Shown here in pieces: positions 1 through 41,521 of a stretch of 41,521 nucleotides of DNA. Position 1 is the stretch's first letter. Each line of letters starts with the position of its first letter. Made by a program: the position numbers and the translations under genes. This DNA comes from a virus. The notes under the pieces were generated by a model, which was given only the letters and a program-made list of their open reading frames with translations, was not told the origin of the DNA and ran no database searches. Location: IMG/VR virus record IMGVR_UViG_3300024429_000006, positions 1 to 41,521 of that record, one strand, 5' to 3'.

Positions 1-127
1 AGTGGCTCTGATAGCCTCTATTTCTTCTTCATCGTCAGCGTCCTGAGCCTCTTCGAGCCTATCAAACAATTCAGCATTATCAACTCTTAACTGGTAGTAT
101 TCCAGTGGGTTGTCAGGGATTGACAGG
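1..127. repeat. Terminal direct repeat (left copy), contig overlap
   Basis: These 127 bases are identical to the last 127 bases of the window. The giant reading frame runs in phase through both copies. The contig therefore represents a circle (or circularly permuted molecule) of 41,394 bp. The length equals a common assembler k-mer, which favours an assembly overlap over a true terminal repeat. Confidence 0.95.
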
Positions 128-3100
128 GGTTCCCCTGCATCAGCCCGCCAGCCAATATACGACTCAACTCCTGCCTCTTCAGCATCCAGATAGTCTTTGA
201 GTAGCAGGAGTTTCGCCTCAACGCTACCGTGAGTTCCCTCAGTGACCATCTCTTCATAGGCGATATGGGTATCCCACGATGTTTCGGGTGGCACTGTAAG
301 TTTGGGCAAGGCGTTGTCCGGTATATCCAGTTGTTTAACTAGGCTGTTGAACTCACTGAACGCTTCTCTGGTAAGTATCTTGGTCTGTCCCCAAATAGCC
401 AGTTCTGCGTTCTCTTTCGGGTGAGTTCTGAGATACTCTTGTCGCGGGTTAATTCCTATTTCAGCCTGATGCTTTTTAAGAAACTCCGCCTGCTCCCTGC
501 GGTCACTAATCGCCCAATACTGGTTCAGCAGGGCAAACTGCCTTTGGGAGAAATTGCCCCTTTCAGCGTTTCTAGTTCTCTCATCTCGGTCAAAGGCGTC
601 TACTGCTTCCTCACCCTTATATGTAATCTTTTTGTATTTGCCGTCTGGCTGTAGTTCTCTTATCGTCCACTCAGCCTTGTCACCAGCAGCAACCAGTTTC
701 TCCCTGTCACGCCACATCTGGTAATACTGAGCAAAGGTCGTTCCTACAGCCGGGTCAGCGTTCATTGAAGATAGCTTCTCACTCGGCAAGGTCAAGAGAT
801 ACTCGTTGATAATCCTCGCTTCAGCAATCGCCGTGATGTAATTTGGATAGCCCTTTACCTCTGTTAGAGTAGCTGGGTCTACATCGGCAAATTGAGAGGA
901 AGTATCACTCCAGAAGTCTGCCGTATCGTAAAATGGTTCGGTTAATCCGTAAGCGAGATTCTCAGAATACTTTGGCAATCCCAGTTTAGGCCAGTTCTCA
1001 ACCCAGTCACCAGTGTATGTCTGAACGCCCATACCAACGATGGCTGGTATGGCCACTCGCCAAGCCATATCAGGGTCTTCGATGTAGGCTTCGTATATGT
1101 CCATAATGGCAAATGGAGCGATTCTTTCAATCCACTGTTTCTTATTGGCTACATCAACCTCTTCGCCGATGAAGGTTCTCCCAGTCCAGAAGTCGGCTAT
1201 AATAGCAGCCAAGGGCGATGCCTTGCCCCTTATGAAGTGCGTTGTTGCACCCAGAGGGTCAACATCATATTCGGCACCAGTTACACTGGATAGCCCTGTC
1301 CCAGTAATAACGCGGGTCAGGAACACTAGATACTGTCTGTAACCGCCCCAAGGGTCTATCCTGATATTGCCGATACGGATACTCATAAACTCGGCACTAC
1401 GAGGGTCTCTCTCTACCTCCCAGAAGCGGAGCATAGCACCCATCAAGACTATCCCACCAAACCCTCCAACGAATGTAACAAGGTTTCTCCATGCCTCTGC
1501 TCTCACATAACGGTTAGCTGATACGAGGTGTCTCGGTGTTAGTAGTCTCCCCAGTGCCAATCTTGGTGCAAAGAAGAATGAACTCAAGGCAGGAGCTAAT
1601 GGCGCAGCCTTGCCCATCTCTGCCCTCCCAGTGAAGTCGGCAAGCATAGTGGCAAAGTCATCCATCTGTTTCTGAATATCAAACGCTTCGCCAACCTTCA
1701 GTGTTATCTCACCAGAGGCAATCCTTTCACTCACCCTAACCATAGCCTTATAGTGGTTTTTGTATATCCGCCAGTTATGCTCATTCGCACCAGTAATAAA
1801 TGCTCTGGCAGATATTTTGACATACGGTATCTTCTCTGTCAGGCGAGGGATAAGCCTTTCACCAGTCAGATAACCAAACTCCTCAACGCCTCTCCACTGA
1901 GCAGTTCCCTTTGCCAAAGTGAGTGGTCTCAGAAAGTCATGCTTGCCCTGTTCATAATACTGATACAGTGGATCCCGACTAATTCTCTCCCAGGATGCCT
2001 CCGCAGCCTTCTGGCTCCACATAGCACTCCACGCTTTCACATTGGCCTGAACAAAGGAGACAGGATGATTAAGAATAAGCGGTGCCTGCTGTCTCCAGAA
2101 TGAGAAGTCGAAGGATGCCTTGTTAGCTCGTAGAAAGTTACCGATGTCAACGGGGCTCCAACCTATCTCCTTCAGGATTTTAATAAGCATATCTCTGGCC
2201 GGTGTCGGCCAGAGTGGTATCTCCTTTATAGCACTTTCAATCGGTGGCTCGTAAGGCGGTTTCGGGGGCAACGGGTATGCCTTATCCCTAGCCTGCATCC
2301 GTTTAAGCTGAAACTCATCAAAGGTAATCTTACCTTCGGCCAACTGCGTTGCGAGTTGAAGCTCTGCTTTGGCAAATTCCAAATCAGCAGGAGTCCGTAA
2401 ATCAGTCACTTGGAGGCTGCTGACTTTCTGTTCACGGCTTGGCTTGACACCTGGCTCTAAAGTCTTAGGTCGCATCAGGTTGGCCACAGCATCCGGTCTA
2501 TCAGTTAAGTTCCTCAGATAATCAGCCATCTCCTGGTCTATCGGTATGGGGTCTTTGCCTGTGACCTCGTAGGAAGCCTCAATGATATTCCATGCCGACT
2601 TCCGTTCAGAGGTCATCTTGTCGATTGCCTTCATAACTCTCGGTTGCTTACCGAACACATAGTTCAATCTATCCCAGGCAGAACCGCCTTCAGGGAATAA
2701 GAGAGTTCCTTTACCCCTTAGTCTCGGTATTGCCTTACCAGTCAAGGCGTTTGTTAGAGCGGTAACAGTAGAAGCCATCTCCAGAGGATACTTCTGCATC
2801 CCTTTATTGTGATATATCATAGTGAAGAGAGCCGACCGCAGTTCGTTACTCATATCCTGCAAGTATTCCGTTTTGGCGACAGGCAATTCACCAGCTAAGG
2901 TTTCACTTATCGCTTGCCTCATCCCCGCTTCTGGCTCAAGACCCTGAGTAACGATTAACTCCTGTGCTCTCGCCTTCAGGTTCTCAGCCTTGACAGTCAT
3001 CGATTCTCGCCTGAGTTCTCTGGTCATCTCCCAGGCTGTCAGGGAAGTCCCACTGATAACATATTCCCCGAAGAAACCAGCAAGAGCCCTAGCTTGTTTC

Positions 3101-6100
3101 AGTGTCATTTTGGGCTGACCGACAATACTCCAGTTCTCAGTAACCTCTTCGGTGCTTAGTTCAGTTCTTCGAGTAAGAGGCTTTTCGGTAAAGGTTCTGC
3201 CAATCTGGGTCTCCGCTTCTTTAATCCTTGCCCTCTCGCGCCGTATTGCCATTACTCTATCGGCAATCTCATCGGGGGTCATATTGAACTCTTTAGTAAG
3301 CTGGTCAAGGACAACATCTCTGGGGACTTTGTTATACTGGCGAGTGCCCGGTTGTGTATATGTCTCAAAGGCTTTTTCAGGATTAAGCATCTGAGCTTGC
3401 TTTACAGTGAAGTATTCGGGGAAGGCTTGCTCACGGATAGAGATTAAACTCTCAAGCCCAACCTTCCGTGTTGTCTGAATCAGCTTATATGTGCCATCGG
3501 GTTGCTTGACCTTTCTAGTTACTGTCTGCTCAAACCTGTATTGAGCAACACGGTCAGCCTCCAGAGTTACCCTCAACCCCTCTATCTCCGCCTCTAACTC
3601 AAAAGCCTGTATCGCTTCGGCTGTGAGTGGTGGCATCTCTGCTTCGGCTCGCCTGGCCTGCTCTAACTTTAGTTGTTCATCCATAGAAATCTGGACTATC
3701 TCCGCTCTGGGTGGCGGTCTGACTTCTATCGTAGGCTCGCCAAACATTGAAGGCTGTAATCCAGGTTCGGGCATAGCAGGTTCGGGTAGCGGGATTTTAG
3801 TGAGAGCCTCCAGTTGCTTCTCAAGATTAGCTATCTCGATATTTAGAGATTCAATTTGCTTATTACCAACAGCCCTTTCTATCGTTCCTTCCTCAATTTC
3901 CCTTGCCACACGAGCTTTATCTTCCCTCACAATTTCCAGTCTTTCCCTCTCAGCCCTACCTACCTCTTCAGGCTCCCCGGGCAATCGGACAAATCCCTCT
4001 TCGCCCTTGAGGACTTCAAACCACTTACCGCTTTGCAGGTCTTTGAGCCAACCCTTCGCTGTCATCTGGGCATCAGTCAATCCCGCAGTCTGTGATGGTC
4101 TAACCATTCTCACGGACACGCCAGCGCCAAACAGCGAAGGTCCAAGAGTAGCCACAGCAGTCTTAACGGCTATGTCTGGGACATTCTCTATAATACTCCT
4201 GTTCTCATCGTAGAAACTGACAGCCACATTACTGACTATTTCCTGGGCAACCTCCGTTACCACCTCAGAAAATTGGCTAATCGTAAAATCCCTGCCGAAT
4301 CTCTTGATAGTTTCAAGCAGGGACTTCTTGGCCAATTCAGAAATAGCTCTGCGTTTGAACTGCCCGAACAGCAACGGACTAATCTGCTTGAGAAGCGGTA
4401 TTCTGCCAGCACTTTCCAGCAGGCCCATAATCCCACCAGCAATAAGAGCCAGTTGCGCTGCTTTATCTCTAGGGGCACCAGCGTTTATCAAGTCCTCATA
4501 TACGGCCTGGCCTTCGATCGGAGTCATTATGGATGCTGTTGCAAATATGGCAGGCCAACCGACACCGCCAGTTGCTAGAGTTCCAACAGCAGCAGCAAGT
4601 ATGAACGGAAGAATGTTTGCCAGTTCATAGACATAATACATAGGGTCTTGCAGCAGTTCAGGGTGCTGAAAGGCTCCTTCCTGATATTCGATAGGAGCCA
4701 CCATCTCAGGGTGTTTCCTCACCCATTCTTCCTGCTCCCTCTTATTCTCAGCGAAAAGCCACCTGAAGTTTTCCCTCATCTGGCGATTGGTTTCATTCAG
4801 AAAATCGCCCAAACCGCCCAGATACCCTTCTGGCATCTCGGGATAGATTATCTCCGGCAATACTGACAGCATAAAGTTCTCACCAAGTTCCCAGTAGGTT
4901 CTTGACTGGAATGAAAACCAGTCCCAGAAATCCTTTAGTCTACTCTGCTCTGGCTCCTTGGTGAACTCCTGTGTGACAGGATTATATGTCCCGAGGTAAT
5001 TCCCGCCCTTATCGTAGGCAGCTTGATTAGGAATATCGATGATAGCCAATCTACTGACACCATCGATATCGACAAGAACCCTTGCCCTGCTGAACATCTG
5101 GTTAATGTCTTCCGGGCTATATCCCATAAGTTCGAGCAATCGCCGTTTCTTGGTGCTACCGCCACCAGTCTCTATTGTCTCAATAAACAGGTCCCAACGG
5201 TCTTCCAGCAACCGGGTAAAGTCCTCAATGTTATCGAAGTCTGGGAAGACCTCACTGATGATAGTATTTATCCGAGCTTCTTGCTCCTCATGGCCAAGTG
5301 CCAGCAGAATATACTCCTCAGTAACGCCCAGAAGTCGGAGAACATTCTCACCCTCTTCTACACCAACTCGTTCAAACAGGTTCTCAACGAAGCCACCGTA
5401 GTCCTCAGTCGCCCAATCACGAAGGCGATTGAAAACCATAACCGGTATTTCGTCCAGCGTAAATCCGTAGCTGCCAGTCGGGTCAAACATTTCGGGATAG
5501 ACCACAGCGAGAGTATCCTCATATTCCGAGGAAGGTCTAAGCGGGGTTCCCGCAAGAATCCAAGCGTTTACATCAAGCGTCCCGCCTGTTCTCTGATATT
5601 CGGCATAAAGTAATTTCTGGTCATCGCTAAGGGGCGAAACCTGTATTTCTGCTGGTTGGGCAATCAAGAAGAAGGCTGGTTCGCCTTCAGCCATAGGTGT
5701 CACCAGAACCAGAGAACCTTCAGGAACATCGAACCCAAGCCATCTGGCCTGTTCCCAGCTTAGATACTGCTCAAAGGGTATATTCCAGCCCTCGATTCTT
5801 TCCTCTGGGGGCAAAGCGAGTTGAGATAACTGCTCCTGTCTAATGAATCTCTCAGCGGACACATCATACTGACCAGCTATCTCTTCCAATTCAAATACAG
5901 GAACCTCTGGGAAGAGGGGTTCTTCAATCTCCAACAGAGGAGCTTCCTCAATCTCTGGGACAACAGGTTCCTCTTCTTCAGGGATGACACCTTCCTCTTC
6001 CTTTGGCAGTCTCGGCTTCTTTGGCGGATAGTGGCCTTCAATCCATGTCCTTTCGCCTGTCACTGGGTCTCGTCGCCAATATCCTGTTGTTATTCCGACA

Positions 6101-6111
6101 TCAATCGTCAC
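1..6111 (-). CDS. Giant virion-module protein, N-terminal 2037 codons (continues at the right end)
   Basis: One uninterrupted frame; I read every codon from 6111 to 1 and found no stop. It continues across the circular junction to 40192, giving about 2437 residues. The chosen start is GTG at 6111, preceded by AAGGTGAT and lying just after the stop of the 61-codon gene; no ATG lies between the upstream in-frame stop (about 6196) and this point. Visible parts: a Pro/Glu-rich linker (about 28-77), a hydrophobic Gly/Ala segment (about 498-530), a charged coiled coil (about 718-771), and a conserved-looking block (about 1438-1603) with FTGRAEMG, SFFFAPRLALGRLL and IRIDPWGGYRQY. From memory, that block resembles the C-terminal region of giant phage polyvalent proteins (LPD38-type). 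It sits between portal and scaffold, where minor head or ejected proteins lie. Inference: an internal virion protein delivered with the DNA. No catalytic motif was recognised. Confidence 0.85.
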   Translation of the reverse strand, partial: MTIDVGITTGYWRRDPVTGERTWIEGHYPPKKPRLPKEEEGVIPEEEEPVVPEIEEAPLLEIEEPLFPEVPVFELEEIAGQYDVSAERFIRQEQLSQLALPPEERIEGWNIPFEQYLSWEQARWLGFDVPEGSLVLVTPMAEGEPAFFLIAQPAEIQVSPLSDDQKLLYAEYQRTGGTLDVNAWILAGTPLRPSSEYEDTLAVVYPEMFDPTGSYGFTLDEIPVMVFNRLRDWATEDYGGFVENLFERVGVEEGENVLRLLGVTEEYILLALGHEEQEARINTIISEVFPDFDNIEDFTRLLEDRWDLFIETIETGGGSTKKRRLLELMGYSPEDINQMFSRARVLVDIDGVSRLAIIDIPNQAAYDKGGNYLGTYNPVTQEFTKEPEQSRLKDFWDWFSFQSRTYWELGENFMLSVLPEIIYPEMPEGYLGGLGDFLNETNRQMRENFRWLFAENKREQEEWVRKHPEMVAPIEYQEGAFQHPELLQDPMYYVYELANILPFILAAAVGTLATGGVGWPAIFATASIMTPIEGQAVYEDLINAGAPRDKAAQLALIAGGIMGLLESAGRIPLLKQISPLLFGQFKRRAISELAKKSLLETIKRFGRDFTISQFSEVVTEVAQEIVSNVAVSFYDENRSIIENVPDIAVKTAVATLGPSLFGAGVSVRMVRPSQTAGLTDAQMTAKGWLKDLQSGKWFEVLKGEEGFVRLPGEPEEVGRAERERLEIVREDKARVAREIEEGTIERAVGNKQIESLNIEIANLEKQLEALTKIPLPEPAMPEPGLQPSMFGEPTIEVRPPPRAEIVQISMDEQLKLEQARRAEAEMPPLTAEAIQAFELEAEIEGLRVTLEADRVAQYRFEQTVTRKVKQPDGTYKLIQTTRKVGLESLISIREQAFPEYFTVKQAQMLNPEKAFETYTQPGTRQYNKVPRDVVLDQLTKEFNMTPDEIADRVMAIRRERARIKEAETQIGRTFTEKPLTRRTELSTEEVTENWSIVGQPKMTLKQARALAGFFGEYVISGTSLTAWEMTRELRRESMTVKAENLKARAQELIVTQGLEPEAGMRQAISETLAGELPVAKTEYLQDMSNELRSALFTMIYHNKGMQKYPLEMASTVTALTNALTGKAIPRLRGKGTLLFPEGGSAWDRLNYVFGKQPRVMKAIDKMTSERKSAWNIIEASYEVTGKDPIPIDQEMADYLRNLTDRPDAVANLMRPKTLEPGVKPSREQKVSSLQVTDLRTPADLEFAKAELQLATQLAEGKITFDEFQLKRMQARDKAYPLPPKPPYEPPIESAIKEIPLWPTPARDMLIKILKEIGWSPVDIGNFLRANKASFDFSFWRQQAPLILNHPVSFVQANVKAWSAMWSQKAAEASWERISRDPLYQYYEQGKHDFLRPLTLAKGTAQWRGVEEFGYLTGERLIPRLTEKIPYVKISARAFITGANEHNWRIYKNHYKAMVRVSERIASGEITLKVGEAFDIQKQMDDFATMLADFTGRAEMGKAAPLAPALSSFFFAPRLALGRLLTPRHLVSANRYVRAEAWRNLVTFVGGFGGIVLMGAMLRFWEVERDPRSAEFMSIRIGNIRIDPWGGYRQYLVFLTRVITGTGLSSVTGAEYDVDPLGATTHFIRGKASPLAAIIADFWTGRTFIGEEVDVANKKQWIERIAPFAIMDIYEAYIEDPDMAWRVAIPAIVGMGVQTYTGDWVENWPKLGLPKYSENLAYGLTEPFYDTADFWSDTSSQFADVDPATLTEVKGYPNYITAIAEARIINEYLLTLPSEKLSSMNADPAVGTTFAQYYQMWRDREKLVAAGDKAEWTIRELQPDGKYKKITYKGEEAVDAFDRDERTRNAERGNFSQRQFALLNQYWAISDRREQAEFLKKHQAEIGINPRQEYLRTHPKENAELAIWGQTKILTREAFSEFNSLVKQLDIPDNALPKLTVPPETSWDTHIAYEEMVTEGTHGSVEAKLLLLKDYLDAEEAGVESYIGWRADAGEPLSIPDNPLEYYQLRVDNAELFDRLEEAQDADDEEEIEAIRAT

Positions 6112-6115
6112 TCTA

Positions 6116-6301
6116 TCACCTTGCCTGAATAGGTTTGGGTCTCCTGGCCATAGGTAATTGCGGTCTTCTAGAGGCAGGTCTTCTGGCAGTCTGCCTCATT
6201 CTCTCAACACTTGGGGAAAACCTCTGTCTTCCTTGAGCCGTTCCACCTTTCATAGCTTCTGTTACCCTACGGTCAAACTCCTCATGGGTAAGTTTAGGCA
6301 T
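6116..6301 (-). CDS. Small basic protein between portal and giant gene
   Basis: 61 codons. The start ATG overlaps the portal stop by one base (TAATG), and the stop lies four bases before the GTG of the giant gene. These tight junctions argue for a real, translationally coupled gene. The N-terminus is acidic and helical (PKLTHEEFDRRVTEAM); the C-terminal half is very rich in Arg and Pro. No family recognised. By position it may be a head-completion or nucleic-acid-binding virion peptide. Confidence 0.6.
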   Translation of the reverse strand: MPKLTHEEFDRRVTEAMKGGTAQGRQRFSPSVERMRQTARRPASRRPQLPMARRPKPIQAR

Positions 6302-8073
6302 TAGCTTTCCTCCGCTCTGCTTCGTGTTACAGTTTCTTCACGCCGTTCAGTTCTTCGCTCTGCTTCTTCTGGCTCCATCGTTTCTTCTTCAGGAGGTGGT
6401 CTGCCAGCACCGCCACCTTCCTGATCCATCAACGGAACCATCGGCTTAACCATTTGCCCTGCAGCGATGCCCCCCTTTGCTGGTTCCAATCCCATCGTGC
6501 CACCCATAGCCCTGGCTCGCAGCACCATCTCAAGCTGCTGAAGAGTCATCCTGGCAAGGAAATCCTTACCATCATCAATCTGCTGATGCCCAACAAGGTA
6601 AAGCGTCTGGGCAATATCGCCCTGTTCAGCCTTTTCAGCTCGGGCTTTCATTATTTCCCCAGTAGGGTCTTTCACCTTTAGGACATCGGTAAACACAGTA
6701 TGCCTCGACATACCGATTGCTATGGCCTGCTGGCCAATGGCGTAGTTGGCTATGTCCTGTTCAGGAGAAGTGGAGTGGAACTCATATTTGGTAGCAAACT
6801 TCTTATCGATATCCGAAACGGAGTATTCCCTTTCGTATCCCTCTTCGCCAATCTCGACCTGATAACCGCCCTGGACATACTGATTCTTAATCATCTGGGA
6901 CGCCGCCCGGTAGAAGAGGCTCATAGCATGGAGTCTCGGGATAAATATGGCATCCTTAGAAGCGGTCAGCTTGGAGATAGCCACAGCACTCAATGGAAAG
7001 GAAAGGGTGCCGTAGTCGATAGTCGGCAAACCGCCGCGCTGGAGAGCCCCCGCTATCATATTTAGAATTAACCTAGCAGAGTTCTTGGCATCGCTGATGG
7101 GAACGGCTGCGTATGTTTCGGTTACACCAAGCTCAGTAACTTTTCTACGGCCATAAGGGCTTTCGGGTTTGTCGCCTGTATCCGGTTCTTCCCTATGGAG
7201 AGTCAGAGCGCCCTCGAAGCTCATATCGGTAAGGGTCATCATAATAGAAGCCGCCCGGTTGAGTTCTGGAATGAGTCCCCTGTTGGGAGCGAAAATACTC
7301 TCGCCCTGATACTTTAGTATCCCGGCATCCATAAAACTCTGGAGTCCCGTGCCTGATTTCTGGAATATGAAAGGCGGATAACCTAAGCCGTGTTCTGTTG
7401 GTCTCTCAATATACTTCCCAGCATTGTTAGTTTGAGACCCGCCCTTATACAGCTGCTGGTCTATGTAGATTTCGTTGACGGTATCATCCCAGAAGTCGGT
7501 AACTACGGCAGTCTTACCCCCTCTAATGACAATTCCGTAGTCCCGTTCTATCTGGGCTTTAGTCCTGGTGATTTGAGGGGCTGCCCATATCAGCCCGGTG
7601 GAATCAGTTTCATACATAAAGTATCTGGTATCAATAGGGAATATCTCGGGGATAAATCTATCACCCTGTTCCCTGATTAGTATTCTGGCTCCTATCGCGC
7701 CCCTATGGAGTATCTGTTCGATAAGGAATCCGTATAGGCTGATGAAGATGGCGTTGGCCAGCATGAGGTCATTGGCGTAATAGATATCGTAGTAGAACCC
7801 TTCGATGGTGGTGGTATCATTATCTGAAAGACCTTTGCCGAAGACAATCCTCTGCATATTAGCGCCGTTCATTATGGCACCACAGCGGTCAGCGAAGACC
7901 TTTGCCTCATTCATTGTGACATTGATAACATCGGGAGTCTTCTGGCCTTGCTGGTTTGTCATTTCAAACGGGTCAAGGATAGCGAGCTTCTTGTCCTCAT
8001 CCATCCGCTTGAACAGGTCGCCCATATCCGCTTTTTTGTCAATGACTAATTGCAGGTTAGATTCTACTGCCAT
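6301..8073 (-). CDS. Portal protein
   Basis: 590 residues, lying directly after the large terminase and before the scaffold and capsid genes, as expected for the portal. The protein is mixed alpha/beta with a long helical C-terminal half. Residues about 340-400 contain the LPTIDYG...LPLSAVAISKL...IFIPRL pattern typical of portal stems. The C-terminal 60 residues are low-complexity, Glu/Arg-rich. It would form the dodecameric ring at the packaging vertex through which DNA enters and leaves. The call rests on size, gene order and general pattern; the exact portal subfamily was not determined. Confidence 0.85.
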   Translation of the reverse strand: MAVESNLQLVIDKKADMGDLFKRMDEDKKLAILDPFEMTNQQGQKTPDVINVTMNEAKVFADRCGAIMNGANMQRIVFGKGLSDNDTTTIEGFYYDIYYANDLMLANAIFISLYGFLIEQILHRGAIGARILIREQGDRFIPEIFPIDTRYFMYETDSTGLIWAAPQITRTKAQIERDYGIVIRGGKTAVVTDFWDDTVNEIYIDQQLYKGGSQTNNAGKYIERPTEHGLGYPPFIFQKSGTGLQSFMDAGILKYQGESIFAPNRGLIPELNRAASIMMTLTDMSFEGALTLHREEPDTGDKPESPYGRRKVTELGVTETYAAVPISDAKNSARLILNMIAGALQRGGLPTIDYGTLSFPLSAVAISKLTASKDAIFIPRLHAMSLFYRAASQMIKNQYVQGGYQVEIGEEGYEREYSVSDIDKKFATKYEFHSTSPEQDIANYAIGQQAIAIGMSRHTVFTDVLKVKDPTGEIMKARAEKAEQGDIAQTLYLVGHQQIDDGKDFLARMTLQQLEMVLRARAMGGTMGLEPAKGGIAAGQMVKPMVPLMDQEGGGAGRPPPEEETMEPEEAERRTERREETVTRSRAEES

Positions 8074-8086: not shown

Positions 8087-9529
8087 TTAGTATGTGTGAA
8101 CTCTCGGGGCACCTCGGCCTTGCATACGATTAAAAGTCATCATAATGGCATCACCGACATCGGGGGATTTACTGCCCCGCGCTTTAGCGTCTTCCTTGCT
8201 TTCTATCTGGAATTGACTCTTGGTATTGTAGGTATATCTGATATCGGATAACTGAGCCTTTGTCTTATCGCTTGAGGGCAAATCCAGTTCGCCGTCTGCG
8301 AGTTTCCTACTGAACTCCCACCATCCTTCGGCTCTGCGGTTAAGGTATCGCTCTTTGTCTAGGGCTTCTTTACCCGAGTCGAACTCTACAATCCTGAACT
8401 CTCCGCCGATTTCCTTTTTTAGAATATCGTAGACCCCGGCACCCAGACCAACCACATCGACATAAGTTCTAACCGGCCTATATTCCTTGATGAGCCGTCC
8501 CGTTCTGCCTGCGGTATAAGTCGATTCTTGGTGTCCCCAGGTAACAGTATCGAGGACTTTTTTACCCTGTCTGACAGCGAAGCAGCACTCATCGTCCCCG
8601 TATCGGGCGACATCGAGGGCAGCAATCCTCATGTGCTTCTCGTAGTCCTTCTTATCAAGCTCCCGCGACATAGCGGACTCGATATCGGAAAGCCGGCACA
8701 GGTTATTTACGCCGGCATCCGGGAAGTCGCCGAGGATAAACACCACATAGAGGTAAGAACCCTTGCCCCAGTTCTTATATCGCTCCGATACTTTAGCGGG
8801 GCTCATTAACTGGGGATACGGTAGTGGCTGGCCGTTCCACCTCTTTTCCCATTCCCCTGACTCAATATCGTGCTGCGTAATGCCGAAGGATGCTAGGTTA
8901 GGGGTATCGAAGGCAGAGATATGGTATTTCTTATAGAGGTCGGAGTTAAAGGTATCCCTGAACGCTCCTACGGACTGCGTAGGGTTGGACAACAATAGTT
9001 CATGGGTATTCCCGGTAGAGAGTGGATTCTCGATTGCGCCGAAGATATCGTTTGAGAGGCCAGCGGCATCATCACCGACCACCAGCACATTGACATTATG
9101 GTATCCGAGCATCCGTTCTGGCTCATCGGTAGCGAAGCCAACAGCGAACCAGTCGTCCGATATTTCCAGGGACTTCCGTGTTAAGTTCCCCTCAAGTGCC
9201 ATTTTTGACCCGGCATGGGCAGTTCTAATCTCACGCCAGAGGACATCCTCGACCTGCCGATTAGTAGGCGCTGTAGTAATGACGGTAGCAGGCGGAAAGT
9301 TATAGAGGAAGGCGAGGACTATTCTGGCAGCATCATAGGTCTTCCCTGACGCCTCACAGCTTCTGACAGTTGTTCTGGGGTAATAGAAAGTGGACTGAGC
9401 GATAGCCTTCTGCATGAGCCAGAGACTACCGCCGAGGACAGTTTCAATCCACCAGTCGGGATAGATTAACGCCTTCTCCCGGATCTTGCGATCCATTTCA
9501 GGCGTTCTTACCAATTCACTTGTTGCCAT
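8087..9529 (-). CDS. terL: Terminase large subunit
   Basis: 480 residues. The ATPase half has a Walker A-like EASGKT (about residues 59-64), followed by a hydrophobic strand ending in VGDDAAG as Walker B (DD in place of the usual DE). The nuclease half has the expected acidic motifs: ALDVARYGDDE, YVDVVGLGAGVYDIL and a C-terminal SPDVGDAIMM. It would translocate DNA into the prohead and cut it. It follows the FmdB-like gene by seven bases and precedes the portal by 13 bases. The start ATG at 9529 is the first in the frame. Confidence 0.93.
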   Translation of the reverse strand: MATSELVRTPEMDRKIREKALIYPDWWIETVLGGSLWLMQKAIAQSTFYYPRTTVRSCEASGKTYDAARIVLAFLYNFPPATVITTAPTNRQVEDVLWREIRTAHAGSKMALEGNLTRKSLEISDDWFAVGFATDEPERMLGYHNVNVLVVGDDAAGLSNDIFGAIENPLSTGNTHELLLSNPTQSVGAFRDTFNSDLYKKYHISAFDTPNLASFGITQHDIESGEWEKRWNGQPLPYPQLMSPAKVSERYKNWGKGSYLYVVFILGDFPDAGVNNLCRLSDIESAMSRELDKKDYEKHMRIAALDVARYGDDECCFAVRQGKKVLDTVTWGHQESTYTAGRTGRLIKEYRPVRTYVDVVGLGAGVYDILKKEIGGEFRIVEFDSGKEALDKERYLNRRAEGWWEFSRKLADGELDLPSSDKTKAQLSDIRYTYNTKSQFQIESKEDAKARGSKSPDVGDAIMMTFNRMQGRGAPRVHTY

Positions 9530-10676: not shown

Positions 10677-10732
10677 CTCAAGACCTTTCAAAACAAAGTA
10701 AGGTATGATAGACTGATGTAGGAGGTTTCAAT

Positions 10733-10942
10733 ATGCCAGAACTACAGCAGGAGATTGAGGACTTTGACCGGAGAGAACTTGAGAAACTAAAGGCTAAGGC
10801 CATTGACCTCAAGAAGAGGAAGGCCGAGAGAATGATGAGCCATTACCACTTGGCTAGGTCACTAGGGTTCACTCCATCTGAAGCGTCAGTCTTGATGGGC
10901 AGGAGCAAGGACTACATAGAACGCCTGGCACGACAGCGGTAG
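10733..10942 (+). CDS. Small HTH-like DNA-binding protein
   Basis: 69 residues with a strong site (AGGAGG, seven bases before ATG). The N-terminal half is a charged helix rich in Glu and Lys (DFDRRELEKLKAKAIDLKKRK). The C-terminal half, YHLARSLGFTPSEASVLMGRSKDYIERL, has the length and hydrophobic spacing of a helix-turn-helix. It is the only plus-strand gene inside the packaging region and meets the small-terminase-like gene tail to tail, with no bases between the stops. The spaced repeats upstream could be its own operators. Function inferred only. Confidence 0.6.
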   Translation: MPELQQEIEDFDRRELEKLKAKAIDLKKRKAERMMSHYHLARSLGFTPSEASVLMGRSKDYIERLARQR

Positions 10943-11290
10943 CTACGGCTCTGAGTCCTCTTCCTTTGTAGCGTCGTTCTCTATCGGCTCCGGTGTGTGC
11001 TTGTTAGCTATCTCTTCCGCGTCTGCGAGGATAGGACGTGGCTTTGTCTCAAGACTCTCGGCGCTCTTGGCCAGCTCACCATAGGTCATGATACCACCGG
11101 AGAGCTGTATCTTCTGGCGTGCCTTCCCGATAGCATGGTCTATGACATACTCACAGGCACGTTGACGAGTAATGGATAGCTTTTGTCTCTGACCTTTAGC
11201 ATGGTCACTGAGTATCTTAGCACAGTGAGCCGCACTATCATCGAGTATCAACTGAGTATGAGCGTTAGTTACTTCTGCTTTTTTTGACAC
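10943..11290 (-). CDS. Probable terminase small subunit
   Basis: 115 residues starting at GTG 11290, with GAGG upstream. The N-terminal part is helical and Arg/Lys-rich; the middle, DHAIGKARQKIQLSGG, resembles the 'GKP.Q..ELSG' linker seen before the C-terminal part of many phage small terminases. The tail is acidic and ends EEDSEP. It is the first gene after the late promoter and leader. The packaging genes resume after the control region at 10306-10732, which supports but does not prove the assignment. An HTH is not obvious. Confidence 0.45.
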   Translation of the reverse strand: MSKKAEVTNAHTQLILDDSAAHCAKILSDHAKGQRQKLSITRQRACEYVIDHAIGKARQKIQLSGGIMTYGELAKSAESLETKPRPILADAEEIANKHTPEPIENDATKEEDSEP

Positions 11291-11676
11291 GATTTAAGCC
11301 TCACAGGTAAATAGCCTTCAGGCGTGCTTTTAGAAGGGTTAAGTTGGTAGCCTTAACACGCCCAGATAATCCACAAAAGTCAGCAAGTGAAAAGCCCGGC
11401 CAGTAGCCAAGTGAGCCTATCAAAAGTCGTTAGCACACTCTTCCTTGCCCTTTCGGGTAGCTGGGCTGAGGGATTAAAAAAGTCTGCTGGCTCGGAGCTT
11501 CTTCCCTCTGCGGCCTAAGACTCGCCCGATAGTTTATAGAGACACCAGCAGTAGAATTAACGAGCCCCGGGCGCCGTAAACCCGGGGCATATAGAAAGGA
11601 GGTCTGACTTAATAAGTCAGCGACATTAGCCATGCTGTAGACCTGTCTTTGGTGACAGTGGCACGGCTAAGAGGGA
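11291..11676 (-). ncRNA. Long hairpin-rich untranslated leader of the late transcript (candidate)
   Basis: No credible gene. Read on the minus strand, from the promoter at 11677-11706 to the GTG at 11290, it holds several inverted repeats: CTGTC/GACAG (11642-11657), CTGACTT/AAGTCAG (11604-11620), an 8-bp GC stem CCCGGGGC/GCCCCGGG (11564-11588), CTGCTGG/CCAGCAG (11484-11551) with a run of six T directly after the CCAGCAG arm (11476-11481), and GGCGTG/CACGCC enclosing GTTAAG/CTTAAC (11331-11362). The T run after a stem suggests an attenuator; the rest could be an antitermination site or a structured RNA. No known RNA family recognised. Confidence 0.45.
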
Positions 11677-11706
11677 AGGATAGCAGAGTTCAGTGGGTTT
11701 TGTCAA
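11677..11706 (-). promoter_or_regulatory. Sigma70-type promoter facing the late genes
   Basis: Minus strand TTGACA (11706-11701), 18-base spacer, TATCCT (11682-11677). It is preceded by GAC, giving GACTTGACAAA, the same left part as the two early promoters. Transcription would run through the leader to the small-terminase-like gene at 11290. Confidence 0.6.
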
Positions 11707-11841
11707 GTCATTTTATACCCTGGGTAATAGGCGTAGGGGCAGGGGTATTCTTGGAGCTGGGTAATTGGCGGTGATAGCACTAAGGTTATTGAGGCTAGAA
11801 AGTATTTGAGTGGCAGTCTTAAAATGAGTGCAGTCAGGGAC

Positions 11842-11870
11842 TTGACAAATGCAAGGGGATAGGTTATAGT
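11842..11870 (+). promoter_or_regulatory. Strong sigma70-type promoter for the plus-strand early operon
   Basis: TTGACA (11842-11847), 17-base spacer, TATAGT (11865-11870): nearly consensus. Start of transcription would be about 11877, 20-odd bases before the first ATG at 11900. Bases 11839-11855 (GACTTGACAAATGCAAG) are identical to the promoter at 26285-26314. Confidence 0.8.
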
Positions 11871-11899
11871 ATGGTTATTAAGGTCAAAGGAGAGTAGAT

Positions 11900-12034
11900 A
11901 TGAGGAGTCAGAAGTGCTATTGCCCAGAGTGCCAAAAGGAAATCATCTTCCTGATACCACTAGGCGAGGACAGTGGGCGACCTTGCCCAGACTGCCACAC
12001 CCCAACAACCCACATTGAGTATATCGACAGCTAA
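11900..12034 (+). CDS. 44-residue zinc-ribbon protein
   Basis: First gene after the plus-strand promoter, with AAAGGAGAG six bases before ATG. Two CxxC knuckles (CPEC at residues 8-11, CPDC about 29-32) around a short beta segment make a minimal zinc ribbon. Its place at the head of the early operon fits a small regulator or host-interaction protein; the exact role is unknown. Confidence 0.7.
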   Translation: MRSQKCYCPECQKEIIFLIPLGEDSGRPCPDCHTPTTHIEYIDS

Positions 12035-12045
12035 CCTATCAACGA

Positions 12046-12088
12046 GAGTCGGGGGCAGCTCCCCGATTCTGGCCGGCAGGTTAGCCGG
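12046..12088 (+). other. Two small stem-loops between early genes
   Basis: GAGTCGGGG (12046-12054) pairs with CCCCGATTC (12061-12069), nine pairs with one G-U. CCGGC (12073-12077) pairs with GCCGG (12084-12088). No T run follows, so they are more likely RNA-stability or translation elements than terminators. Confidence 0.5.
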
Positions 12089-12114
12089 GAAATAACAAGA
12101 AGGGAGGGTAGTTT

Positions 12115-12288
12115 ATGGCATACCGAAAGAAAACTCTAAGGTCAATGTCCCCGACTACTCGCAAAGTGGCCAGGCTAATCGGGGAACTGGACAGCGTAAG
12201 TCGCCGCCTCAACAACATAATACCGGAACTGCAACGGCTTGAGCTGGACAGTAAAGCATTGCACAACGCCCAGTTCCCGAAGGAATAA
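12115..12288 (+). CDS. 57-residue coiled-coil protein
   Basis: ATG six bases after GGGAGGG. The N-terminus is very basic (AYRKKTLRSMSPTTRK); the rest is a heptad-like helix (IGELDSVSRRLNNIIPELQRLELDSKAL). No family recognised. It could bind nucleic acid and dimerise. It ends 24 bases before the next gene. Confidence 0.6.
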   Translation: MAYRKKTLRSMSPTTRKVARLIGELDSVSRRLNNIIPELQRLELDSKALHNAQFPKE

Positions 12289-12312
12289 ATAATAAAGAAA
12301 GGAGGGAAGCCG

Positions 12313-12600
12313 ATGACTACCGCTATTAGGAAGTGGAACTACGGACATTACAAGTCAGACAACTATGGCGGTCACTCCATGGCTGTCAGTATAGGCACGC
12401 TGACCCTGTATTTCAGTTATGATACTGTCATAGCCTTTGCTGAACTAGGCCACAGCCTAAGATGTTGTGAGAATGTCTGGACTGTTACCACTGGTAAGCA
12501 TCTTAACTGGATTTCCAGTAAAGATATGCGCCTACCCCATGAGCGCTTCGAGTCTGAACTTGAGAATGTATTAGCCGAACATCACTTATCGGTCAGCTAA
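12313..12600 (+). CDS. Conserved phage protein (DUF8033-like)
   Basis: 95 residues with an AAAGGAGGG site. The order 'W.YG.Y.S.NYG.H', 'LYFSYDTVIAF', 'CENVWTVTTGKHLNWI' and a final helix matches, from memory, a family of small proteins in phages and mobile elements. The pattern suggests a small alpha/beta fold with a conserved TTGKHL loop. Activity unknown. It is the third gene of the early plus operon. Confidence 0.7.
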   Translation: MTTAIRKWNYGHYKSDNYGGHSMAVSIGTLTLYFSYDTVIAFAELGHSLRCCENVWTVTTGKHLNWISSKDMRLPHERFESELENVLAEHHLSVS

Positions 12601-12612
12601 TCTCTTGACCAA

Positions 12613-12640
12613 CCGGGCTGGAGTTGAGGTTCCAGCCCGG
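12613..12640 (+). other. Perfect 10-bp hairpin in early operon
   Basis: CCGGGCTGGA (12613-12622), eight-base loop, TCCAGCCCGG (12631-12640). It lies 13 bases after one stop and about 20 before the next ATG, with no T run. Likely an mRNA-stability or translation-control stem, or a weak attenuator. Confidence 0.65.
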
Positions 12641-12659
12641 GAGTGAGGGGATCAGAAAC

Positions 12660-12860
12660 ATGGGATACTATCAACAGAAAGCAAAGCGTAATACACAGGC
12701 AGGGCGCAGTGACCCGAAGTTTATTGAGGTCTTCGACCAGATGCGAGACTTGGAATATACAGTTGCACAAGCTAGAATCATAGCCTGGGAAGCCTGCTAC
12801 TTTATGAACCTGCATCCCGACTGGACAAAGGAAGAGGCTATCAGCAAGGCATTGGAATAA
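12660..12860 (+). CDS. 66-residue hypothetical protein
   Basis: Start chosen at ATG 12660, preceded by GAGGGG; a longer frame from 12624 would begin inside the hairpin. The N-terminus is basic (GYYQQKAKRNTQAGR), followed by two or three helices with conserved-looking aromatics (EACYFMNLHPDWTKEEAI). No family recognised. It sits 21 bases before the next gene, in the same operon. Confidence 0.6.
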   Translation: MGYYQQKAKRNTQAGRSDPKFIEVFDQMRDLEYTVAQARIIAWEACYFMNLHPDWTKEEAISKALE

Positions 12861-12881
12861 AACGAAAGGAGAGGGAATACT

Positions 12882-13130
12882 ATGGAACCAGAGGAACTAC
12901 AGGAAAGGTTGACTAAACTCCTGGACCAGAATAGCCCTGAGAATTGTATGCTCACTATGCCTGAGAATTTAAGGGAGGCGTTCGACAAATTCATTGTGGG
13001 TTATGGTAAGGCAAAAGCCCCTCTAGCGGACCACTGCTCAGTAGTAGCTATCATGGGGGGCTCTTTTGCTGAAGGGTTCTGGCTAGGGCTTGACTACGCT
13101 TTGGAGTATGGCGAGCTTAGAGGAGATTAG
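12882..13130 (+). CDS. 82-residue hypothetical protein
   Basis: AAAGGAGAGG site. An acidic N-terminal helix (EPEELQERLTKLLDQ) is followed by a Gly-rich helix pair (IMGGSFAEGFWLGLDYALEYGEL). It is like several small soluble phage proteins of unknown function. No catalytic motif seen. Confidence 0.6.
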   Translation: MEPEELQERLTKLLDQNSPENCMLTMPENLREAFDKFIVGYGKAKAPLADHCSVVAIMGGSFAEGFWLGLDYALEYGELRGD

Positions 13131-13150
13131 CAGACAGGAGGAACTGAATC

Positions 13151-13285
13151 ATGTCCATAACCACAGGGAAGAAAGCCCGGCAGACTGGCGGGACTAGATT
13201 CGACATTAAGCGTTCTACCATGAGGTCACGGAACGCCAGGGCTAGGGATAAGGGCAAAACATACGTAACCACGAAACAGGACTAA
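13151..13285 (+). CDS. 44-residue strongly basic protein
   Basis: ATG after ACAGGAGG. The product is rich in Lys, Arg and Thr and has almost no acidic residues, so it probably binds nucleic acid. It sits in the early operon between two better supported small genes. No family recognised. Confidence 0.6.
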   Translation: MSITTGKKARQTGGTRFDIKRSTMRSRNARARDKGKTYVTTKQD

Positions 13286-13300
13286 CGAAAGGGGGTAACT

Positions 13301-13480
13301 ATGAATCAACCTCTATGTGGCTGGGACTGGTTTAGGCAGCACCGCAACGACTACACCCAAGCTTATGTTGACAGCCTCAGTATCGAGCTGAGAGTCTGCG
13401 GCAAGCTACAAGCACAAGTCCAGGCGGGGGAAAAGAAAGACCGGGGAATAGTCAGGGAAATCGTGAGGATCAATCGATGA
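13301..13480 (+). CDS. 59-residue hypothetical protein
   Basis: AAAGGGGG site. Starts NQPLCGWDWFRQHRNDYTQAYVDSL and continues as a basic helix. Its stop overlaps the next start in an ATGA junction, which supports translation of both genes. Confidence 0.6.
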   Translation: MNQPLCGWDWFRQHRNDYTQAYVDSLSIELRVCGKLQAQVQAGEKKDRGIVREIVRINR

Positions 13481-13836
13481 ACAAACCAACGGAAGAACAG
13501 ATTAAAGAGTTCTGGGAGTGGTGTGGGTGGCATATTAGGCGAGAGGCTAGTTATAGTTCATTCTTTGGTAGCAATCTAATCACGACATATTATGTGTCTC
13601 CTGATGGTGTAAGTGAAGAGTCATTCCCGCCCATAGACCTGAATAACCTCTTCAAGTATGCCTGGGAAGTAGCGGTAACATACCTTATGGGGCATCTAAC
13701 CCATGATAGAATATCCGCCATCAGATACCTGTTTGACAAATGGCTTGAGCAGTATATCAAGGATGGACTTCGGGATTTTGAATCGGCTCTATTCTGGGCT
13801 TTGTGGGAACTGAGGGCTCAGGAGACCAACCCATGA
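13477..13836 (+). CDS. 119-residue conserved phage protein
   Basis: Starts with helix EEQIKEFWEWCGW, then a short beta part with PDG, then FPPIDLNNLFKYAWE and a C-terminal FESALFWALWEL. The 'WCGW ... PDG ... P.IDLNNLFKYA ... ALFWAL' order recurs, from memory, in small phage proteins, possibly related to the phage ABA-sandwich group. Function unknown. ATGA overlaps with both neighbours. Confidence 0.6.
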   Translation: MNKPTEEQIKEFWEWCGWHIRREASYSSFFGSNLITTYYVSPDGVSEESFPPIDLNNLFKYAWEVAVTYLMGHLTHDRISAIRYLFDKWLEQYIKDGLRDFESALFWALWELRAQETNP

Positions 13837-14052: not shown

Positions 14053-14055
14053 ATC

Positions 14056-38318: not shown

Positions 38319-39383
38319 TTATACCGATGCCGATGGAGCAGTGTTGGTAATATCGGTGATTCGACCTATGGCATACTTGCTGCCAACGATTAGATTCGTA
38401 TATGCAGCAAGACGCATCGCCTTACCGATGTAGCCGGTCATCTTCTCAATGTATTCCAGATTGAAGAACTGGCCGTCTCCCTCGGTCTTACCAAACGCTA
38501 CTTTAACGCCGGGGTCAATGCTACCAAGAGTGGTAGTCCCCAGTTTGATTCCGAAGATGGTATACTGCCGGGTTCCAGAACTGTAAACTGCCCTCGCACT
38601 GGCGCTGGTAGTTCCCTGGCCTGAATTAGCTGCTTCAGCCACCATGAAGTCGGAACGGACTATCGGTTTGTTGTCGAAGGTTAGTGTCCGTCCACCAGCC
38701 TCATTCACTGAGTAGCCAATCAGACCCATAACGCCACGCTGAGTAGACTTCAGTTCAGGGATACCAAGTTCCCTGTATACCCGGTCTATCTGACGAGCAA
38801 GGCAGAAAGGCATCAGCCAAAAGTCAAGTCCATACTTCATCTCATCAGAGAGAATCCGCATATTCTCTAGCGCCAATGCAGCTTCGCCCTCGTCTCTATC
38901 CCAATCTTCGCCCCAGTTAGTTGCAGCCCAGGCATGAAGACCATCCATTGACAACCCGGTGCCATCGTAGGTATAGTCATCGTAGATAAGCTTCTTGCCG
39001 AGCTTCTTGGTTGTATCCCTCATCATGCCCTCGAGCGCCATTCTCTCATAGTCATTGACAGTCGCCCAGATAGCATTGTCGTAACTATCTATCTTGGTCA
39101 TCAAATAACATATTCGGAGAACGGCAGTCTGGGCACTAAAGGTAGCGCCCTCGCTGAATATCGTCTGCCCGCCCGGTCCAATATCGGCAACACTATCCTC
39201 AAGGTTCGCATTTTCACGAAGCCATCGGATGTATTCGCCGGTATGGTTGGCCTGAACAAACGGCAAAATATCAACGGGGTTTCCCCTCTTGTAGTTCTCG
39301 TCCACCACGCCGGGAATCAGCGTGGGGGTCGTAGCCTTTAGCACTTCTGCTAGGCTATCCCAAAAACCACCTGATAAAGCCAT
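38319..39383 (-). CDS. Major capsid protein
   Basis: 354 residues immediately downstream of the scaffold gene. Pattern SEGATFSAQTAVLRICYLMTKIDSYDNAIW (a spine-helix lead), YERMALEGMMRDTTKKLGKKLIYDD and a C-terminal 'AMRLAAYTNLIVGSKYAIGRI' end as in HK97-fold coat proteins of N4-gp56/P22-like kind. Precise subfamily not determined. It would form the icosahedral shell with the scaffold as template. Confidence 0.75.
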   Translation of the reverse strand: MALSGGFWDSLAEVLKATTPTLIPGVVDENYKRGNPVDILPFVQANHTGEYIRWLRENANLEDSVADIGPGGQTIFSEGATFSAQTAVLRICYLMTKIDSYDNAIWATVNDYERMALEGMMRDTTKKLGKKLIYDDYTYDGTGLSMDGLHAWAATNWGEDWDRDEGEAALALENMRILSDEMKYGLDFWLMPFCLARQIDRVYRELGIPELKSTQRGVMGLIGYSVNEAGGRTLTFDNKPIVRSDFMVAEAANSGQGTTSASARAVYSSGTRQYTIFGIKLGTTTLGSIDPGVKVAFGKTEGDGQFFNLEYIEKMTGYIGKAMRLAAYTNLIVGSKYAIGRITDITNTAPSASV

Positions 39384-39401: not shown

Positions 39402-40136
39402 TTATTTTTTCTTAGCATCCGCAAGCATCTTTTCGGAGACGCTCTTGGCATCCCCACCAGCAGATATAGTGGAAGCAGGCGTATTGGTTAAGGCAGCGGG
39501 CTTTGGTTTACCAGTTTCAGGGTCAATCTCCACCGTGCCACTCTGTTTGAGGAGTGTGGCTGCGGTAGCCAGTCGCCCCGCATCGCCGTCAGGGACAATC
39601 TCAGCCAGCTTTTTCTCATCAACACCAGCAGCCATAGCTGCCAGCTTGATGGTCACAGAAGTTTCCTTCTGAGTGAGGGCGGTTTCCCTCTCATTCTGCT
39701 TTGCATCCCTTGCTTGCTGTTCACCCTGGACACCTTTCTGCCTAATTTCCTCACGAGCTTGAGTTTGCTTGACTCTCAGTGAAGTTAGGGCTTCCGGGTT
39801 ATCCTTGACCGCATCAGCCTCAGCTTCTTCCCGGGTTCTCAGGAGTTCGTTTACCTGCCCGGAGACAGTGTTAAGGCGTGTAGTCACTGTGCCGAGTTCG
39901 GCTGTAAGCGTTTTGACTTGACCCTCAGCGGTATCAGCCCTCGTTTTCTGCTCACGGCCATTAGCCGAAAGCGCATCCTCAACCATCTTCTTTGCCTCTG
40001 CTCCAGTATACTGCTTGTCCACCTCAATCTTTGAAGTCGACCGTTCAGCAGTAGAAGTTTGCTCAGAGCCAGACTGAAGAGTCTCCTGTTCAGTCTGAGT
40101 CCCAGCTTCGTCCCCTACCTTAGTAGTCTTGTCCAT
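39402..40136 (-). CDS. Scaffolding protein
   Basis: 244 residues, almost all helical and charged, with a long heptad stretch (ADTAEGQVKTLTAELGTVTTRLNTVSGQVNELL), further coiled coil to about 170, then PDGDAGRLATAATLLKQ and a Lys-rich end (SVSEKMLADAKKK). Size, charge, basic C-terminus and place just before the capsid gene are those of phage scaffolds. It follows the giant gene by 56 bases. Confidence 0.75.
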   Translation of the reverse strand: MDKTTKVGDEAGTQTEQETLQSGSEQTSTAERSTSKIEVDKQYTGAEAKKMVEDALSANGREQKTRADTAEGQVKTLTAELGTVTTRLNTVSGQVNELLRTREEAEADAVKDNPEALTSLRVKQTQAREEIRQKGVQGEQQARDAKQNERETALTQKETSVTIKLAAMAAGVDEKKLAEIVPDGDAGRLATAATLLKQSGTVEIDPETGKPKPAALTNTPASTISAGGDAKSVSEKMLADAKKK

Positions 40137-40191: not shown

Positions 40192-41521
40192 TTACTCCCT
40201 TAATTGAGCGAGCATTTCCTCGATGTCTCTTCCCTTCTCTTCCCACTCCTCAAGGAATCGCTCATAAGGTGTTAGTTCTTCTCGAATCTTCTTATCAGCT
40301 ATCGGGGTGTAATCGAATTTAATCACGAGCCACATATCCAAATCCCTATGCTCCAACCTGAAATCGTCCTTGGACTTGAGGTGAGGAAGCGTCAGGTATG
40401 TCAGATAGAGAGTAAATACTTCCCTACTTGGAACCTTAGTAAAGTCTTTTCGTTCATTGCCCAGTAACCCTACATAGACTGTCCGGTAGAAGTCGATATT
40501 CTCCATCAGGAACCAGTCATCATCATACCACAGGTCAGTGCCCATCTCAAACTTCCAGTTCGGCGGTTTGCCTTCACCTATGATTTTGTAGTAGCCGACA
40601 TAGTTTTCAATATACTGTTCTGGAATAAAAGCACCATAGCCGTTTCTGCGGAGTTCAGCAAGCCCGAACTCAGTATAGATACCCTTGCCATTAAACCGCA
40701 GTGCATCTCTGGCCAAACCTCGCTGTTCCGGATCTTCAATATAATGTTCCGACCTATGATCCGACAGTCCCTCCAGCCTCTCAAAGTTCTCCAAGTAAAG
40801 GTCATAGATGTCATCGTATTGAACCGCCGGCATGTCTTCTGGTTTGGGTATATCGATTCCCTTGACTTCGTGCATCGCCTTGGCAAAGTCAGGATGGTCA
40901 ATTAGGAATCGTTCCTGTCGCTTGCCCTTGGTCTCTATTTCATAGTAGACAACAAAGTTCTCAATCTGGTCAGCAGGGAATCTCTCACCGTCTGGTCCCA
41001 ACAACTCGTAGGCTTCACGCCTCCGCCTATCCCTTCGGTAGTCTTCGTTCTCCAAGAGGTAGTCCTGTCGCTCTGAGGTTGTCTCAAGCGCATCGTATTC
41101 AGCATCCTGTTCCTTATATTCCACGTCTATTCGCCAAATCGGGATGCGGTATTCGTCAATAGCTTCCGAAGCACTCTCTCCCCAGTAATCCTCACTCATT
41201 AAGAAGTCGTTAAGGTCAGGGTTATCGAACCTGTTAAGTTTCGCCTCGGCACTATTACCGCTTGTCTCATCAACTATTCTCATGTGTTTAACATAGGCGT
41301 CCACCAGTTCTTGAGGAATCGGCCCTTCCCTTGTCCCCTTGCCAATAGCCAGAATCCTGCGCTCTATGTCGTGGAAGGTTTCGGCATCTACTTTAGTGGC
41401 TCTGATAGCCTCTATTTCTTCTTCATCGTCAGCGTCCTGAGCCTCTTCGAGCCTATCAAACAATTCAGCATTATCAACTCTTAACTGGTAGTATTCCAGT
41501 GGGTTGTCAGGGATTGACAGG
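40192..41521 (-). CDS. Giant virion-module protein, C-terminal part (continues from left end)
   Basis: C-terminal 400 residues of the giant protein, plus the 127-base overlap also present at the left end. Frame and sequence agree with the left-end part. The region is highly charged and rich in Glu, Asp and Tyr. It carries loosely repeated helical units of the form 'ENF..YYEI..KGK...F..DHPDF', 'ENYVGYYKI.GEGK' and similar, suggesting a helical repeat tail. An internal ATG at 41463 should not be taken as the start, because the frame is open far upstream. The gene ends 56 bases before the scaffold gene. Confidence 0.85.
   Translation of the reverse strand, partial: LSIPDNPLEYYQLRVDNAELFDRLEEAQDADDEEEIEAIRATKVDAETFHDIERRILAIGKGTREGPIPQELVDAYVKHMRIVDETSGNSAEAKLNRFDNPDLNDFLMSEDYWGESASEAIDEYRIPIWRIDVEYKEQDAEYDALETTSERQDYLLENEDYRRDRRRREAYELLGPDGERFPADQIENFVVYYEIETKGKRQERFLIDHPDFAKAMHEVKGIDIPKPEDMPAVQYDDIYDLYLENFERLEGLSDHRSEHYIEDPEQRGLARDALRFNGKGIYTEFGLAELRRNGYGAFIPEQYIENYVGYYKIIGEGKPPNWKFEMGTDLWYDDDWFLMENIDFYRTVYVGLLGNERKDFTKVPSREVFTLYLTYLTLPHLKSKDDFRLEHRDLDMWLVIKFDYTPIADKKIREELTPYERFLEEWEEKGRDIEEMLAQLRE
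41395..41521. repeat. Terminal direct repeat (right copy), contig overlap
   Basis: Exact second copy of the left end. Removing one copy gives the unique circular sequence and joins the two halves of the giant minus-strand gene without a frame change. Confidence 0.95.

Follow-up and report, generated by a model that had tools for sequence, protein, structure and literature searches.

The window analyzed here, the whole 41,521-nucleotide stretch of IMG/VR virus record IMGVR_UViG_3300024429_000006, carries a giant gene that runs across the ends of the linear contig, between a portal gene and a probable scaffold gene (Table 1). Positions 1-127 are identical to positions 41395-41521, and this exact end overlap gives a circular map of 41,394 bp; since 127 nt is a usual last assembly k-mer, the repeat looks like an assembly overlap and not a biological terminal repeat. 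Joined on the minus strand (6111 to 1, then 41394 to 40192), the frame yields 2437 residues with a single stop, from a GTG start at 6111 to the stop at 40192, and it can also be read to 41520 within the overlap copy. A stop-free run of 2437 random codons has a chance of about 10^-52, and the ratio of nonsynonymous to synonymous substitution rates (dN/dS) among related copies of the gene is 0.14-0.33. The GTG start is backed by two relatives (L011 and L012), which open with the shared motif TGYWR.NP.TGER.WI. Similarity continues in frame through the join in relatives that are uncut there (window ..EEIEAIRATKVDAETFHDIERR.., L002 ..EEDVEEIRARKVDGETFLDVERR..), and this straight continuation rules out an assembly artefact or chimera at the contig join. 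The giant frame is real: circular closure, conservation and the read-through of relatives all bear out the original prediction of a 2437-codon gene across the junction, and its estimated share of about 18% of the genome comes to 17.7% (7314 of 41,394 bp).

About 40 relatives with the same gene were found in IMG/VR and in metagenome-assembled genomes (MAGs) of Dehalococcoidia, with searches of viral contigs giving 8 and then 36 loci and searches of genomes adding chromosomal or MAG copies. In nearly all loci with enough flanking sequence, the gene is a single open reading frame (ORF) of 1926-3012 amino acids (aa; 1690 aa in L018), and the gene order is portal (about 550-600 aa), giant gene, scaffold-like gene and capsid gene. 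Across loci, capsid identity was taken from phrog_212 in some and phrog_283 in others, and portal identity from phrog_64. The portal call in the window follows from its homologue in L021, which is 35% identical and matches the phrog_64 portal family at 1.4e-5, while the L021 homologue of the capsid gene matches the phrog_212 major head protein at 7.7e-35. The scaffold call in the window was made from position and coiled-coil composition only, and with that basis for the scaffold the predicted place of the giant gene in the head-gene block, between portal and scaffold, is confirmed. No tape-measure-like gene was recognized in the window, as had also been predicted, and the second-largest ORF matches tail fibers.

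Table 1. Features of the giant gene and its neighborhood in the window (positions from the first letter of the 41,521-nt stretch).
Feature	Position	Strand	Basis or remark
End overlap, copy 1	1..127	.	same letters as 41395-41521
End overlap, copy 2	41395..41521	.	
Giant gene, 5' part, residues 1-2037, GTG start 6111	1..6111	-	single ORF in relatives
Giant gene, 3' part, residues 2038-2437 and stop	40192..41394	-	in-frame homology over the join
Variable N-terminal region, residues 1-449	4765..6111	-	22% mean pairwise identity; length varies
Helical hydrophobic module, residues 450-671, hydrophobic stretch 494-518	4099..4764	-	exchanged between close relatives
Variable slot, residues 672-782	3766..4098	-	about 110 aa of charged coiled-coil-like sequence
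Conserved linker/domain, residues 783-1000	3112..3765	-	about 840-970 modelled at high confidence
Conserved core, residues 1001-1950	262..3111	-	mostly helical
Portal gene, 590 aa, upstream neighbor of giant gene	6301..8073	-	homologous to portals of 24 loci
Large terminase subunit-like gene	8087..9529	-	PF17289 at E 0.0046, under cut-off; phrog_7579 terminase large subunit at E 0.006
Small gene upstream of terminase gene	10943..11290	-	TerS-like by position only
Major capsid gene	38319..39383	-	homologous to L021 gene, 27.5% identity, 2e-22
Probable scaffold gene directly downstream of giant gene	39402..40136	-	position, composition; homologous series in relatives

Comparison of 28 members with the window protein resolves a modular anatomy, in which mean pairwise identity is 22% for residues 1-449, 23% for 450-671, 33% for 791-1000, 51% for 1001-1950 and 35% for the C-terminal part (1951-2437). 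The core contains a hydrophobic segment (1543-1561) and the motifs DPRSAEFMSIRIGNIRIDPWGG and GVQTYTGDW; the hydrophobic stretches at about 494-518 and 1543-1561 recur as hydropathy peaks of 1.6-2.1 in many, not all, members. Between the hydrophobic module and the conserved part lies a slot of 64-602 aa, bordered downstream by the motif GMPEAGLQPSM[LI], which is conserved in most members, and the standard deviation of its length is 132 aa versus 1-4 aa for most core blocks.

Neither the slot of the window protein nor the protein as a whole contains an enzyme or effector domain recognizable by Pfam and PHROG profile searches. Several relatives do carry such domains, three of them (L024, L032 and L007) in the giant chain and L038 in split form, whereas the window chain lacks the several effector domains per chain that polyvalent proteins have. 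The slots of L024 and L032 hold ADP-ribosyltransferase (ART)-like sequence, with matches to the ART-PolyVal family PF18760 under the Pfam cut-off (3e-6 and 5.5e-4, respectively), and the L024 segment aligns with the strong ART-PolyVal domain of L038 (BLASTP, 5e-6). All four HExxH motifs in the family are located in the slot (HEIGHSLG in L024, HEALH in L025 and L026, HELGH in L028); the slots of ten further members gave nothing significant against Pfam, so that HEALH and HELGH are called zincin-like on motif and position only. Additionally, the 3012-aa giant of L007 ends in a fused class I methyltransferase (L007:18095-19033; PF08241, 4.5e-24).

Distant relatives extend the family beyond this arrangement. 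The divergent L046 led to MW202497, in which the gene for a 1582-aa protein homologous to the core (hhalign 98.3%, 1.3e-14) lies a short way after one that bears the annotation "phage stabilization protein" (P22 gp10-type). In L038 the core forms a separate 607-aa gene (hhalign 98.1%, 8e-14) that directly follows an 1893-aa gene with ART-PolyVal (8e-18) and PBECR5 (1.5e-27) domains. L046 and L047 are homologous to the giant protein by hhalign (99.9% and 76%) and match no Pfam family, and thus offer no bridge to a named domain. Their genes (L046:1806-4931 and L047:5474-9856; 1041 and at least 1460 aa) are shorter, come from Dehalococcoidia-class genomes and also stand among head genes; their size is perhaps the ancestral one. 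In L050, the capsid and the gene before it are unlike those of the window, and the giant core is all that is known to be common. No match to the giant gene was found by tblastn in 50,697 phage records or in plasmid records.

Residues of about 1438-1603 had been thought to resemble the LPD38-type end of polyvalent proteins, a domain that occurs in phage-type polyvalent proteins (PMC5512222). These residues do fall in the most conserved part of the protein, but the domain assignment was not supported. The hidden Markov model of LPD38 (PF18857, curated cut-off 27 bits) finds nothing in the window up to an E-value of 10 and nothing in the relatives tested, and hhalign of the core alignment against L049, a true LPD38 protein (64 bits to PF18857) and the only one found in 400 genomes of the phylum, gave a probability of 0.1%; L049 is the sole LPD38 sequence in this comparison. 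A point of likeness is an LPD38-named protein among the Foldseek matches, weak at rank 6 (E 0.024). In Foldseek the core model matches unnamed or uncharacterized viral proteins (7e-13 to 4e-6), and the N-terminal model matched several LPD-named proteins, none significantly. LPD38 membership finds no support from Pfam, from the family search of the record or from hhalign against L049, and Foldseek adds no more than the weak match at rank 6; on the available tests the giant protein does not appear to be an LPD38 member.

The core has been exchanged between phages that differ in their portals and capsid families. Mean identity is 50.6% for the core versus 26.7% for the portal, with the core more conserved in 223 of 231 pairs and a correlation of 0.21 between the two. 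The giant genes of L021 and L033 are 89% identical (95.6% in DNA over 6.1 kb, starting inside the gene) with portals only 32% identical, while L014 and L029 share portals at 82% identity and have giants much less alike. Core and portal topologies are mutually rejected (1000 replicates of resampling of estimated log-likelihoods; p-values of the approximately unbiased test are rough), and this rejection together with the L021/L033 contrast excludes noise as the source of the discordance between the trees. Exchange also reaches within the protein: the cores of L027 and L028 are 82% identical and their hydrophobic modules 27%, whereas L023 and L028 share 76% in the module and 64% in the core. The cores of L024 versus L025 and L028 are 64-72% identical, and the capsid proteins of these loci belong to different PHROG families. 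One contig, IMGVR_UViG_3300036760_000421 (44,578 bp), has a different portal-giant module at each end (L019 and L033; giants 83% identical, portals 32%); this is either a pair of phages or prophages lying next to each other or a join made in assembly.

We propose, with a probability of roughly 70%, that the product of the gene is one modular ejection protein of giant size (roughly 275 kDa), from a short-tailed phage that infects Dehalococcoidia-type bacteria. That the protein is an internal virion protein ejected with the DNA, as the original prediction held, is probably correct given the synteny, the hydrophobic modules, the effector-like domains of relatives and the MW202497 homologue after a stabilization gene. 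The protein would be made late and held inside the head near the portal, through which it would leave, partly unfolded, ahead of the DNA or together with it; by means of its helical core and hydrophobic segments it may then form or line a passage across the cell membrane. Lying between the hydrophobic module and the core, the slot would serve as a cargo bay, and, as has been suggested for polyvalent proteins, the ART-like and zincin-like domains found there in some relatives may become active in the host right after entry. Since the slot of the window protein holds only a coiled-coil-like stretch, this protein may serve DNA delivery alone.

Two known systems resemble this arrangement. Phage polyvalent proteins (Iyer et al., 2017, PMC5512222) are giant multi-domain proteins encoded among late genes, for which packaging and injection are predicted; the giant gene likewise has virion-gene neighbors (portal and capsid), and its relatives carry ART-PolyVal, PBECR5, zincin-like and methyltransferase domains. 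It differs in that the window protein has no recognized effector, its core belongs to no Pfam family and it lacks LPD38, and in that the effectors of the family sit in one defined variable slot. The giant protein is predicted to work like an ejected polyvalent protein, with effector content in relatives only. The ejection proteins T7 gp14/15/16 and P22 gp7/16/20 (PMC8954989) share with it a short-tailed context, a helical body and, as predicted for many of its members, hydrophobic segments, and the distant homologue after a P22-type stabilization gene is a further likeness to P22. The window, in contrast, encodes a single giant chain where those phages have three proteins, and its gene lies between those for the portal and the scaffold; no muralytic domain was found in it, and its core is more conserved, not less, than the portal.

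Several results weigh against an ejection protein. The high conservation of the core is the reverse of the trend reported for ejection proteins, which are described as varying more than the other proteins of the virion (PMC8954989), and the effector evidence comes from relatives and not from the window protein. The core and N-terminal models are mostly helical and of modest confidence (predicted local distance difference test 72.5 and 73.1; predicted template modeling score about 0.4), which makes their domain packing unreliable, and no solved structure in the PDB matches by profile or by fold. The window portal and one tail gene also have no match in the 50,697 phage records, so that no cultured phage stands as a reference. 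Scanning of 27 members revealed no muralytic domain, which T7 gp16 has. Dehalococcoides lacks peptidoglycan, and this could explain the missing domain.

A tape-measure or inner head (core- or scaffold-like) protein that stays in the particle, with the enzyme domains of relatives as incidental cargo or maturation proteases, would also suit the portal-scaffold position, the largely helical character and the very conserved core. We consider it improbable: the position is not that of a tape measure, no long-tail genes were recognized, and ART-like and methyltransferase domains are unexpected in a tape measure. Moreover, the slot and the hydrophobic module, unlike the core, are freely swapped, and the core is kept across two capsid-gene families, which is unlikely for a protein fitted to the capsid. 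Still less probable, and in our view very unlikely, is an N4-type virion enzyme, such as a virion RNA polymerase, with an unrecognized catalytic core in residues 1001-1950. Its size class and the strong conservation of one core would agree, and one A2 member weakly matches the phrog_2206 virion RNA polymerase (E 0.006), yet neither the window protein nor the other members match a polymerase family, the core is modelled as almost entirely helical, with hydrophobic segments, and no PDB polymerase was matched.

The giant protein may also be used by elements other than phages. A chromosomal copy, L040, lies on the Dehalococcoidia MAG contig DUEE01000026 in an element of 16,702 bp bounded by a perfect 37-bp repeat (4371-4407 and 21073-21109), the right copy of which is the 5' half of a tRNA-Thr gene; the adjoining host genes are presumably serA, tyrS and ribF. 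The element encodes a tyrosine integrase (phrog_1, 1.6e-77), a primase-helicase (phrog_6088, 3.7e-31) of a type present in 28 of 156 genomes of the order and in none of the viral contigs, an intact 2207-aa giant gene and homologues of two small window genes. One of these, the homologue of the small gene upstream of the terminase gene (10943..11290), adjoins the giant gene (14590-14820; 35% identity, E 1e-5). No homologue of terminase, portal or capsid was found in the element by tblastn with 717 ORFs from phages and related loci; in G001 only a weak partial portal match was found, elsewhere in the genome, and no helper phage was identified. Beside the integrase, a 215-aa gene contains a motif of about 25-35 aa (EIAIWSIATEYGADPMELKKL) common to the scaffold-like proteins of the phages (hhalign 95.4%, 1.8e-8), which scores 37.0 bits versus at most 29.6 in 1991 shuffles and at most 26.9 in clearly non-scaffold ORFs. 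The rest of this protein is a non-scaffold backbone.

With its exact attachment repeats, an integrase and no terminase, portal or capsid of its own, L040 is, as judged from sequence, a probable phage satellite. Its main rival is that L040 is a decayed prophage in which the giant gene was kept by chance, so that the core would be uninformative on satellite use; we regard this as a real possibility, if on balance a doubtful one. Prophage decay is common, as in the Dehalococcoidia contig L076, where a short capsid-like gene and a few tail-like genes stand in a bacterial contig, and L040 stems from a MAG. Decay is harder to reconcile with exact 37-bp repeats alongside an intact integrase, primase-helicase and 2207-aa giant ORF, with the lack of any terminase, portal or capsid trace within the element, and with a protein that bears the phage scaffold motif on a non-scaffold backbone. 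A further point against it is an element of about 10 kb from another genome of the order, whose integrase and primase are of the same type and which has a related gene yet lacks the giant. This element (L075; G837:C5, 1986-11119) is integrated between host genes, carries a homologue of the N-terminal part of the 215-aa gene and no structural genes, and is possibly a bare satellite backbone.

The satellite reading of L040 finds parallels in elements with capsid-redirecting proteins, such as SaPI CpmB and P4 Sid: an integrase, a replication gene, a small packaging-like gene and a protein with a helper-type scaffold motif, with no structural genes. CpmB of SaPI shares a coat-binding motif with the helper scaffold. 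L040 differs in having its own giant ejection-type gene; we know of no described satellite with such a gene, and a literature search found none. Two giant genes also occur in a second genome of the order (L056, G808:C13:20000-36236, and L057, G808:C81), one of them on a contig that also has a portal gene and genes resembling those for the small and large terminase subunits. This contig is a true phage or prophage, and phage and satellite-like copies of the giant gene thus exist within the same bacterial order. The chromosomal copy in L040 and the terminase-portal-giant contig together point to Dehalococcoidia-type bacteria as the probable host.

Elsewhere in the window, plus-strand genes with reversed GC skew occupy about 10700-14600 of a mostly minus-strand genome. 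The start regions of two adjacent small genes hold a 59-nt repeat (18725-18783 and 19099-19157, 81% identical), as if a regulatory or start segment had been duplicated, and positions 15810-16871 resemble, by eye, a DNA adenine/cytosine-N4 methyltransferase (DPMAGSGT and SPPY motifs).

The conservation of the core above that of the portal, together with its exchange between phages of different portal and capsid families, and the presence of the giant gene in a satellite-like element are unusual features. The variable slot, the exchange between capsid types and this element go beyond the original prediction. As a defined place in the protein, the slot allows candidate virion-delivered effectors to be found by position alone, and L040 hints at a satellite type within a class of bacteria for which hardly any described phages were found. 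As a tentative view, to which we give somewhat less than even odds, a Dehalococcoidia satellite would carry both a scaffold mimic and a giant ejection protein of its own, and could thereby travel in helper particles bearing its delivery protein; the core, fixed by the host envelope, would pass between phages and satellites whose capsids are unrelated, and the neighboring slot would be reloaded with different anti-host enzymes. Because conservation of the core is about double that of the portal and the same core occurs across portal and capsid families, our results suggest that the host side of DNA entry, and not particle architecture, sets its evolution.

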